Assembly: GCF_007559335.1 (NCBI RefSeq)
Contig: NZ_VMBG01000001.1
Location: 2,381,946-2,445,945 of the forward strand
Length of the DNA stretch: 64,000 nt
Direction: 5' to 3'
DNA from: Rariglobus hedericola
GTDB lineage: Bacteria; Verrucomicrobiota; Verrucomicrobiia; Opitutales; Opitutaceae
Shown one piece after another: positions 54,853 to 57,728 of this stretch (position 1 is the stretch's first letter; the number at the start of each line of letters is the position of its first letter). Below the pieces are notes generated by a model. That model made no database searches, was not told the DNA's origin, and worked only from the letters and a program-made list of their open reading frames with translations. The position numbers and the translations under genes were made by a program.

Positions 54853-56541
54853 GTGCCACCGGACAACGCCAACATCGCCCGACACCTCGCACACATGGCC
54901 GCCAGCCAGCCGCTCACCGCTGCGCTCAAGGTCCCGCGCGGCCGCACGCGTGACGGCGGCATCGATTACCTCACGCTTTCTTTCGCCGAGCTCGCCGCCG
55001 AAGTCGGCGCCTGGCGGACCGAACTGACGTCCCGCGGCGTCCGCCCCGGCGACCGCGTCCTCGTCATGGTGCGTCCCGGCCTGCCGCTCATCGCCGCCGC
55101 CTTTGCCCTCTTTGCCCACGGAGCGGTGCCCGTCGTGATCGACCCCGGCATGGGTCTGAAAAGTTTTCTCTCCTGCGTCGAACGCTCCGGTCCCCGCGTG
55201 CTCCTCGGCATTCCCATGGCGCGCCTCGTCAGCCGCGTTTACCGCCGCGCTTTCCGCACCGTCGAGCTCCGCATCCCCGCCAGCAGCTCGCCCACCGACC
55301 GCCGGGCTTCGAACTCTCAACCCTCAACTCTCAACTCTCAACTCGCGGCAAATTCGCCGGACGAACTCGCCGCCATCCTTTTCACCAGCGGCTCCACCGG
55401 TGCACCCAAGGGCGTTTGCTACACCCACGGTATGTTCGACGCGCAGGTCGAACTCATCCGCACCACCTACGATATACGCCCCGGCGAAATCGACCTGCCA
55501 CTGCTCCCGCTGTTCGCCCTTTTTAATCCCGCGCTCGGCATGACCACCATCGTGCCCGAGATCGACCCCAGCCGCCCCGCCACCGTCGATCCCGAAAAAA
55601 TCATCCGCGCGATCCTCCAGGAAAACATCACCAGCTCCTTCGGTTCGCCCACCCTCTGGCGAAAAATCGCCGTCCATTGCCACGAGAACCACATCGCGTT
55701 GCCCACGATGAGGCGCGTGCTCTGCGCCGGCGCCCCCGTGCCGCCCGACTTGTGGGATTTGATGACGCCTGTGCTCCCGCACGGACAACTCCACAGCCCC
55801 TACGGCGCCACCGAAGCACTCCCCGTCAGCACTATCAGCGCCGCCGAGGTTATGGCCCACCACGGCGGCACCGCCGTCGCCACCCAACACGGCGCCGGCA
55901 CCTGCGTTGGCCGCCCGCTCCCCGCCAACGACGTCCGTATCATCGCGCTCACCGACGCGCATCTCGCCTCGCTCGCCGACACCCGCGAACTCCCTCGCGG
56001 CCAGATCGGCGAAATCATCGTCGCCGGCCCCACCGTCACCCACACCTACGACGCGCTTTCCGAATCCACCGCCGCCGGCAAAATCCACGACCCCGCCACC
56101 GGCGCGATCTTCCACCGCATGGGCGACGCCGGTTACCTCGACGCCGACGGCCGCCTCTGGTTTTGCGGACGCAAAGCCGAACGCGTGGACAACGGCGACG
56201 GCCCGCTCTTCACCGAACAAGTCGAACCAATCTTCAACACCCACGCTGACGTCCGCCGCTCCGCCTTGGTCGGCCTCGGCAAACTCGGTCACCAACGCCT
56301 CGCCGTCGTGATCGAGCCCACCTCGCCCCAGTTTGCGACCAGCAGTGCCGATTGCCGCCGCTTCGCCCGCGAACTCCGCGAGATCGCCAAACGCTTCCCC
56401 CATACCGCCGGCATCAAACTCTTCTACTTCCGCGATAAATTCCCTGTCGACGTGCGCCACAACGCCAAGATCCACCGCCTCACCCTCGCCCGCTGGGCCG
56501 CCGACGGCGCCACCGGCTACGAGTCCGACCCCAAGCGATGA
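54853..56541 (+). CDS. oleC: OleC-type AMP-dependent synthetase (beta-lactone synthetase)
   Basis: 562 residues with a GTG start. AMP-binding superfamily: ILFTSGSTGAPKGVCYTHG (A3 loop), PYGATEALPVS, GDAGYLDADGRLWFCGRK. The N-terminus NIARHLAHMAASQPLTAALK and VPVVIDPGMGLKSFLSCVER match OleC of the Ole long-chain olefin pathway, which closes a beta-hydroxy acid to a beta-lactone. An in-frame low-complexity insert lies at 55311-55344. Four bases overlap oleD. No oleA or oleB is nearby. Confidence 0.88.
   Translation: MPPDNANIARHLAHMAASQPLTAALKVPRGRTRDGGIDYLTLSFAELAAEVGAWRTELTSRGVRPGDRVLVMVRPGLPLIAAAFALFAHGAVPVVIDPGMGLKSFLSCVERSGPRVLLGIPMARLVSRVYRRAFRTVELRIPASSSPTDRRASNSQPSTLNSQLAANSPDELAAILFTSGSTGAPKGVCYTHGMFDAQVELIRTTYDIRPGEIDLPLLPLFALFNPALGMTTIVPEIDPSRPATVDPEKIIRAILQENITSSFGSPTLWRKIAVHCHENHIALPTMRRVLCAGAPVPPDLWDLMTPVLPHGQLHSPYGATEALPVSTISAAEVMAHHGGTAVATQHGAGTCVGRPLPANDVRIIALTDAHLASLADTRELPRGQIGEIIVAGPTVTHTYDALSESTAAGKIHDPATGAIFHRMGDAGYLDADGRLWFCGRKAERVDNGDGPLFTEQVEPIFNTHADVRRSALVGLGKLGHQRLAVVIEPTSPQFATSSADCRRFARELREIAKRFPHTAGIKLFYFRDKFPVDVRHNAKIHRLTLARWAADGATGYESDPKR
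55311..55344. repeat. CTCAACT repeat in frame inside oleC
   Basis: Four tandem copies of a 7-9-base unit around CTCAACT, coding for roughly NSQPSTLNSQL in a linker just before the AMP-binding loop. The same unit forms the spacer repeat at 10625-10656. Confidence 0.75.
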
Positions 56542-57728
56542 CCCCCGCGCCCCCCACTTCTCCGTCCGTCACCAACCCAGTTTGTAACTTAATAAGTTAC
56601 AAACCATCTGGACCCGTCCTCGTTACCGGCGGCACCGGGTTCCTCGGCCGCCACCTTGTCGAACACCTCCTCGCCGCCGGTCGCCCCGTCGCCGTGCTCG
56701 CCCGCACACCCGCCCCCGACTTGGAAAAACGCGGCGTCCGCTTCATCCGCGCCTCGCTCGATGACGAAACCGCCGTGCGCGCCGCCTGCCGCGGCATCGA
56801 CACCGTTTTTCACGTCGCCGCCAAAGTCGGAGTCTGGGGCCGCTACGACGACTTCTTCCGCGCCAACGTCCTCGGCACCCGCGCCCTGCTCGCCGGTTGC
56901 CGCGAACACGGCGTCTCCCGCTTCGTTTACACCAGCACGCCCAGTGTAGTTTATAACGGATACGATCTGGCCAACGCCGACGAATCCCTTCCGCTCACCA
57001 CATCCTGCCCGAGCCCTTATCCGCTCACCAAGGCCATCGCCGAGCGCGAAGTTCTCGCCGCCAATTCTGCGACCCTGCGCACGGTCGCCCTGCGCCCGCA
57101 CCTCATCTGGGGCGTAGGCGATCCGCACCTCGTCCCGCGCATCCTGAAACGCGCCCGCGCCGGTCGCCTCCGCATCATCGGCGCAGGCCGCAACCGCGTT
57201 GACATGGTCCACGTCGAGAACGCCACCGACGCCCACCTCCTCGCCGAATCCGCCCTCCTCCCCCGCCCCCCAGCCCCCACATCGCAAGCGAACCCGCAGT
57301 CGAACCCGACCCAGCCAACTTGTAACTTATTAAGTTACAAGTTGGCTTATTCAGTTCCTGGAGAATGTGATCCAATCATTAATCCTACTCATTCGAGTGC
57401 CGCTGGCCGCGCGTATTTTATTACCAACGGTGAGCCCGTCGTCCTCTGGGATTGGATCAATGGCCTCCTCAACACCCTCGGCGAACCGCCCGTTACGCGG
57501 CACATTTCGCTGCGCACCGCATCCGCCGTGGGGGCCGTCTGTGAAGCCGCCTGGCGCGTCCTGCCGCTCGACGGCGAGCCGCCCATGACGCGTTTCATCG
57601 CCGCAGAACTCGCCAAAGACCACTGGTTCTCGATCGACGCCGCCCGCCGCGATCTCGGCTACAGCCCGCGCATCAGCATGGCCGAGGGCACCGCTTCGCT
57701 CGTGAACTCCTTGCGCCGCCCGTCATGA
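56538..57728 (+). CDS. oleD: OleD-type NAD(P)-dependent reductase/epimerase
   Basis: 396 residues; its ATG overlaps the oleC stop. Short-chain dehydrogenase: GPVLVTGGTGFLGRHLVEHL (Rossmann), VFHVAAKVGVWGRYDDFFRA, VYTSTPSVVYNGYD and the catalytic YPLTK. OleD reduces the 2-alkyl-3-ketoalkanoate made by OleA. It carries two in-frame palindromic inserts: one in a 30-residue N-terminal lead before the Rossmann fold (peptide VCNLISYKP), the other in an extra loop of about 40 residues (TCNLLSYKLA) before the conserved GRAYFITNGEPVVLWDWING. Confidence 0.87.
   Translation: MTPAPPTSPSVTNPVCNLISYKPSGPVLVTGGTGFLGRHLVEHLLAAGRPVAVLARTPAPDLEKRGVRFIRASLDDETAVRAACRGIDTVFHVAAKVGVWGRYDDFFRANVLGTRALLAGCREHGVSRFVYTSTPSVVYNGYDLANADESLPLTTSCPSPYPLTKAIAEREVLAANSATLRTVALRPHLIWGVGDPHLVPRILKRARAGRLRIIGAGRNRVDMVHVENATDAHLLAESALLPRPPAPTSQANPQSNPTQPTCNLLSYKLAYSVPGECDPIINPTHSSAAGRAYFITNGEPVVLWDWINGLLNTLGEPPVTRHISLRTASAVGAVCEAAWRVLPLDGEPPMTRFIAAELAKDHWFSIDAARRDLGYSPRISMAEGTASLVNSLRRPS
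56580..56604. repeat. In-frame palindromic element, copy 1 (oleD)
   Basis: Twelve-base arms (GTTTGTAACTTA and its reverse complement) around a single A. Read through in the oleD frame as VCNLISYK. It shares its 21-base core, apart from the central base, with copy 2. Confidence 0.85.
57314..57348. repeat. In-frame palindromic element, copy 2 (oleD)
   Basis: Seventeen-base arms (AGCCAACTTGTAACTTA and its reverse complement) around a single T: a perfect 35-bp palindrome. Read through in frame as TCNLLSYKLA. Confidence 0.88.

Follow-up and report, generated by a model that had tools for sequence, protein, structure and literature searches.

In-frame palindromes of an oleD-like gene in Rariglobus hedericola: members of a dispersed family possibly kept by a protein that binds duplex DNA

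An oleD-like open reading frame (ORF) of Rariglobus hedericola contains two copies of one palindrome, both translated, which raises the question of what kind of element this is and whether it is kept at the level of DNA, RNA or protein. The ORF lies at 56538..57728 on the forward strand of the window, i.e. the whole stretch of 64,000 nucleotides analysed here (contig NZ_VMBG01000001.1, positions 2,381,946 to 2,445,945). The two palindromes proved to be members of a dispersed family, which we believe, with about even confidence, to be kept by a symmetric (probably dimeric) putative protein binding duplex DNA. The evidence, consisting of copy number, co-varying arms, species dialects, retention at orthologous loci, a single stop-free frame and stepped spacings of close pairs, favours such a protein over both an RNA hairpin and a repetitive extragenic palindromic (REP) sequence moved by a REP-associated tyrosine transposase (RAYT).

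A translated palindrome and its genomic family

The ORF encodes a 396-residue protein of the NAD-dependent epimerase/dehydratase family, as indicated by domain matches and an 82% identical match in G010 (G numbers denote comparison genomes, G000 being that of R. hedericola itself). Residues 27-242 match 3Beta_HSD and Epimerase, with which the name oleD, given in an earlier reading of the sequence alone (the sequence-only reading), would be consistent. The palindrome core, TTGTAACTTA-N-TAAGTTACAA, comprises 21 bases and is exact in both copies. Copy 1 (56580..56604, core 56582-56602) has perfect 12-base arms around a central A and is translated to CNLISYK within the N-terminal lead that precedes the Rossmann fold (residues 1-25, 56538..56612, forward strand). 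Copy 2 (57313..57347, core 57320-57340) has perfect 17-base arms with a T at the centre on the forward strand and is read as CNLLSYK in an extra loop (about residues 241-289, 57258..57404, forward strand); the palindromes themselves are assigned no strand. Direct reading shows that oleD translates both cores as TGT-AAC-TTA-NTA-AGT-TAC, the sole stop-free frame per strand within the core. The sequence-only reading had described both arms and the in-frame peptide CNL(I/L)SYK correctly, as the exact cores and the ORF confirm; its separation of 734 bp has to be amended to 738 bp between the centres, and the two copies are not a close pair of the stepped kind treated below.

Within the window, the oleD copies are the only matches to the core at up to three mismatches, with none in 100 shuffles. 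The genome holds 34 exact copies and 62 places within two mismatches (reversed-pattern control: 0), which rules out that the core occurs nowhere else, one of two outcomes that the sequence-only reading had named against itself. A degenerate form centred on A or T collected 63 sites with the consensus CCAANCCRG-TTTGTAACTTA-A-TAAGTTACAAAC-YGGNTTGG, in which the left flank is better conserved; placed on copy 1, this 41-base consensus covers 56572..56612 on the forward strand. By a composition-based (crude) gene model, from which site C2:65711 fell out, 62 of the 63 sites could be assigned. ORFs hold 18 of them, 16 in the open frame; the other 44 are intergenic, with neighbouring genes in tandem (28), convergent (9) or divergent (7) orientation. 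Under a looser definition of ORFs, 22 copies lie within them and 20 of these are in the open frame. Each of the 13 host genes of open-frame sites, oleD included, has a match to a Pfam family of ordinary enzymes. Some sites are located in the gaps between domain matches, for example in an allophanate hydrolase (site 425, between 15-408 and 446-571), a YjeF/Carb_kinase protein (site 217, between 187 and 251) and a chorismate-binding protein (site 358, between 324 and 379), and also inside domain matches, in TatD (209) and Peptidase_M32 (85).

Both oleD copies can fold as RNA hairpins, and none of 200 shuffles folds as well (z -3.8 and -8.5), in agreement with the strong hairpins expected in the sequence-only reading. 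The strand carrying the central A is the sense strand at 21 of the 28 intergenic sites between tandem genes and at 12 of the 18 sites within ORFs. This would suit an RNA element whose mRNA hairpin acts in stability, processing or pausing, an explanation that we consider hardly probable, given that divergent genes flank 7 of the intergenic sites (by the crude gene model) and that a stepping of close pairs by about one helix turn is not readily explained by RNA. The A-centred strand is also the G-poor strand at 44 of the 63 sites (p 0.002), gene direction and replication not being separated in this count. As a separate observation on strand, fifteen consecutive palindromes at C2:466722-750452 all have the A-centred strand on minus.

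Matched arms, dialects and the OleD lead and loop

In six genomes, positions +/-6 are complementary in 244 of 269 sites (shuffled maximum 173) and positions +/-3 in 250 of 269 (shuffled maximum 137), in a sample that includes G004 in part and 74 sites of G010 and in which relatedness is not controlled. Between R. hedericola and G010, whose OleD is the closest among the congeners, 26 sites of R. hedericola could be matched on both flanks, and 25 of them were kept. At these 25 loci, 139 of 150 bases are identical at the search-free positions (+/-3, 9 and 10), whereas an ungapped comparison 13-25 bases away from the centre gives 377 of 650 and aligned flanks reach 80.5%. Change is found mainly at +/-6, at 19 and 15 of the loci; at 12 of the 25, both arms passed there from C-G to A-T, 11 of these being unchanged at +/-3. 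The copies thus keep the core at orthologous loci and shift their dialect in place.

Matched arms and dialects would need no selection if ectopic gene conversion homogenised the copies, and the orthologous site L061, where the whole arm type differs from that in G010 and G004 (AGTTTGTAACTTA versus AAAGTGTCACCTA), is hard to reach by point changes. We nevertheless regard conversion as very unlikely: half-changed cores, in which one arm alone has reached the new state at +/-6, are common in R. hedericola (15 of 63 sites), as expected from single steps, the flanks outside the palindrome differ between copies and so offer little homology for conversion, and the spacing of pairs is left unexplained.

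The oleD gene itself was followed in the 13 genomes of the genus, whose OleD members were found by protein homology and not by the palindrome. The loop carries the palindrome in 8 of them (R. hedericola and 7 of 12 congeners, the latter in another dialect), with the peptide types CNLLSYK, CHLISDK, CHLLGDT and CHLIGDT. In G003, G005 and G006 the loop is short (AL-x-GAA(A/S)GRAY), and the placement of the copies in a lead and in an extra loop that some close homologues lack, as proposed in the sequence-only reading, is upheld; the other two are G012, with a decayed palindrome, and G008, with a long loop and no palindrome. The N-terminal lead has a palindrome in five genomes, G000, G010, G007, G002 and G011 (in G011 it departs by one base). 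In wider protein searches, such a peptide was present in the lead or loop of 62 of the best 120 of 7740 OleD homologues (52 with a stricter motif) and in 73 of 93 new ones in a second search, compared with 7 and 4 occurrences elsewhere in the same proteins of the two sets. The ten homologues that bear an organism name belong to Opitutaceae, Opitutus, Rariglobus or Verrucomicrobia; each search listed the best 120 out of several thousand, and within this range the other outcome named against the sequence-only reading, the same peptides in distant phyla, was not seen. Counted over leads and loops of both sets, with a motif that admits only H/N and D/Y at the paired positions, the residue pairs were H-D in 190 cases, N-Y in 17, N-D in 6 and H-Y in none.

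The structure check suggested in the sequence-only reading gave an OleD model from 52 sequences with a mean predicted local distance difference test (pLDDT) score of 80.7, most of the fold being confident. The score falls below 50 at residues 11-19, which overlap the lead peptide, at 262-284, which contain the loop peptide, and at 137-157, which hold no insert. Both palindrome stretches are thus modelled with low confidence and without helix or strand, which would fit tolerated, unstructured inserts and is no proof of them.

The leads of congeners hold other repeats as well. In G012 (L083) and G008 (L085), species without the first palindrome family at this place, there is a second palindrome-like motif, of the TAACCCA-A-TGGGTTA type in G012 and weaker in G008. 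The leads of G004 (L077) and G006 (L086) hold short repeats of the ATTGGTCATTGG type, read as (S)DIGHWSLDIGHS or SLVIRHS, so that the OleD lead hosts several kinds of repeat.

Stepped spacing and a candidate DNA-binding protein

Close pairs of palindromes are in excess, with 3 pairs within 100 bp in R. hedericola against about 0.1 expected for 63 random sites in 4.15 Mb. Among the places listed for seven genomes, 33 centre-to-centre spacings are below 120 bp, one of them in the OleD loop of G004, and all measure 45-46, 54-59, 66-69, 75-78 or 90 bp. The spacings step by about 10.5-11 bp, near one turn of the DNA helix, and none of 5000 random sets was as periodic as the 22 values that remain when each spacing is taken once per genome. 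The same steps recur in OleD loops with at least two peptides: 28 distinct spans in the first protein set were 45 (five times), 54 (three), 57 (eight), 66 (eleven) and 69 (once), and 33 spans in the second, new set were 45 (seven), 54 (eleven), 57 (six), 66 (five), 69 (twice), 78 and 90. In phase were 27 of 28 and 30 of 33, values that 0 of 20000 simulations reached for either set, and spans of 48, 51, 60, 63, 72 and 75 are absent from both sets. It is mainly the length of the spacers that is kept: those of 24 pairs show no symmetric complementarity (77 of 397, against 89.5 by shuffling; mean fold z 0.10), and eight 54-bp spacers of G207 have a mean identity of 0.41 (maximum 0.76). By their centre base, 17 of the 24 pairs are inverted, among them all eight 54-bp pairs of G207. 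Degenerate second sites beside single palindromes gave 8 matches at 20-160 bp around 214 sites, the three strong ones scoring 14, 17 and 17 of 18 at 45, 46 and 130 bp.

Because the dialects are matched on both arms and the pairs are stepped, binding to duplex DNA is favoured over a role as mRNA hairpin. A putative mover would have introduced the palindromes as short insertions (roughly 24-40 bp), and within genes mostly in-frame insertions in tolerant segments would have survived. A bound protein would then select for the site, and as the preference of the binder drifts, resident copies would change on both arms and alter the peptide, as from CHLISDK to CNLISYK; where two sites are close, the protein would contact both from one side of the helix. 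The job of this protein may be chromosome organisation or division control, which is our guess. A more specific form of this proposal, which we advance only tentatively, is that the palindromes form an array of chromosomal sites across the bacterial family, bound by a candidate dimeric chromosome protein. As its specificity shifts, both arms of the resident sites would be rewritten, with enough force to alter amino acids of the host genes and to fix the length of the OleD loop in helix steps. If this is true, a DNA-level constraint is written into protein sequence, and the H-D and N-Y pairs and the usual loop spacing of 15, 18, 19 or 22 residues would be consequences of the palindromic DNA and its helical pitch and not of what the protein does. 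The family would then be a test bed for the co-evolution of a dispersed site array and its binder across closely related species, with the core as a concrete bait for finding the protein.

The distribution among relatives bears on a further explanation, that of a purely selfish palindromic mobile element without a role for the cell. The exact 17-base core is absent from the 272 other genomes of the order (1 of 273, the genome of R. hedericola itself). A tolerant form, GTnACnTAnTAnGTnAC, occurs in 81 of the 150 genomes (R. hedericola included) from the family, which judging by the organism names of OleD relatives is the Opitutaceae; at least 5 copies are found in 59 and at least 20 in 26 of them, up to a maximum of 83, whereas the reversed control never exceeded 1 per strand in any genome. 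Within the genus, the 21-base tolerant form is present in 7 of 13 genomes. G002 and G011, which lack it, carry a C-type palindrome in oleD, and a shorter form has 0 copies in G003, the sole one of the other six in which it was tested. In a searched named collection, which may leave out records near R. hedericola, the 21-base core was met in one other record, a Melioribacter contig. The exact core was absent from the viral contigs searched, which gave no link to phages.

A selfish element, similar to REPs, to their doublets (REPINs) or to Rickettsia palindromic elements (RPEs) and moved by a transposase such as RAYT, would survive in genes where it lies in frame in tolerant segments. We rate this alternative as possible, if short of even. 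It agrees with the patchy copy number, the close pairs, the mixture of filled and unfilled OleD homologues, the two main dialects within the single genome of G207, two Y1_Tnp matches in R. hedericola and the published REPs within ORFs of Opitutus terrae (PMC3733652, available part). Against it, orthologous copies retain the core while changing dialect in place, the spacers do not pair as described for REPINs, and GTAG or CGTC tags are not enriched. Furthermore, palindrome and Y1_Tnp counts are unrelated in 150 genomes (Spearman 0.11, p 0.19), 4 of the 15 genomes that lack a Y1 match have at least 5 copies, and 32 Y1 loci (92 kb) contain no core; since Y1 matches occur in 135 of the 150 genomes, R. 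hedericola included, the comparison of counts is a weak test. RAYT was set aside as the mover for these reasons, Y1_Tnp being present nearly everywhere. A recurrent neighbour gene was also sought and rejected: four paralogous groups recur at least three times near sites in one genome, which by eye resemble a histidine kinase, an ABC ATPase and part of a P-type ATPase, with one unassigned group.

Several observations weigh against a protein-bound array. No binding protein was found for the palindrome family, the copy number of 0 to 83 within one genus looks like that of a mobile element, and 57 of the 63 sites in R. hedericola are single. The half-changed cores mentioned above count here as well, as do the decayed copy of G012 and the one-base departure in the lead of G011, both found in OleD without use of the pattern. 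As the search fixed 12 of 17 pattern positions, much of the apparent core conservation is ascertainment. Four of the 61 OleD spans are off phase (69 three times, 90 once), the phase set was defined with knowledge of the genome pairs and of the first protein set, and the OleD proteins are related, so that shared spacing, in which descent was not controlled, may partly be inherited.

Relation to known repeats and position on the chromosome

Intragenic palindromic repeats are already published for a verrucomicrobial genome, as REPs inside ORFs of Opitutus terrae (PMC3733652, available part), contrary to the statement in the sequence-only reading that no such family was known from Verrucomicrobia. 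The GTAG/CGTC REPs described there share with the present palindromes, probably in the same bacterial family, the short palindromic form, many copies per genome, translation of some copies in ORFs and the occurrence of dimers. Their stems are mostly 6-9 bp in the part of the paper available, compared with a 10-base half core here, and stepped dimer spacing was not met in that part; the two families are set apart here by these features and by the tags, GTAG-17, -19 and -20 being the O. terrae families whose consensus letters are of interest. Within 25 bases outside the core, GTAG was found at 3 sites versus 3 control segments of 62 in G000, 2 versus 3 of 72 in G010 and 0 versus 1 of 36 in G004, and CGTC at 9 versus 15 of 62, 12 versus 17 of 72 and 5 versus 9 of 36, respectively.

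The sequence-only reading had compared the oleD copies with the Rickettsia elements. This likeness is partly right: the palindromes are dispersed over the genome, and those within genes are mostly translated in frame (16 of the 18 sites in ORFs use the open frame, the insertion itself having been checked for oleD only). The present unit is shorter than the Rickettsia elements. The latter, which the available part of PMC3733652 mentions, also lie in frame and are translated in genes; going by their description, the present family is distinguished by species dialects with matched arms, orthologous retention and phased pairs. REPINs associated with RAYT are doublets with a preferred spacing and less conserved spacers (PMC3116915, available part), as here. 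Their spacers pair into a hairpin, unlike the unpaired spacers of the present family, in which singles dominate in R. hedericola and which shows no relation to the Y1_Tnp count. In open-licence PubMed Central (PMC), as far as its accessible text goes, no paper on the present family or on helical stepping was found, and none of the 16 papers holding the 10-base half core concerns the family by its title.

Site arrays of nucleoid-associated proteins, such as the Noc-binding sites (PMC4331003), consist of dispersed specific sites around the chromosome, as do the palindromes here. The largest site-free gap in R. hedericola, 624 kb at C1:430-1054 kb, holds a GC-skew switch, and 47 of 5000 simulations gave a gap as large. 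It would fit a role in division or chromosome organisation and is a lead only, because no comparable gap at a skew switch is clear in G134, G239 and G207, where the skew itself is unclear. An avoidance of the terminus is suggested in R. hedericola alone. In contrast to Noc-type arrays, dnaA (1.756 Mb of C1) lies at neither skew switch. One palindrome (L033, G000:C1:1757131-1757151) stands about 0.8 kb beyond the match to the C-terminal domain of dnaA. On the second contig, 20 kb (L265, G000:C2:600001-620000) have 35% G+C compared with 54-64% in other samples, possibly a foreign island or masked sequence, and in L268 (G000:C2:900001-920000) the GC skew is locally reversed (-0.113) in an otherwise positive contig.
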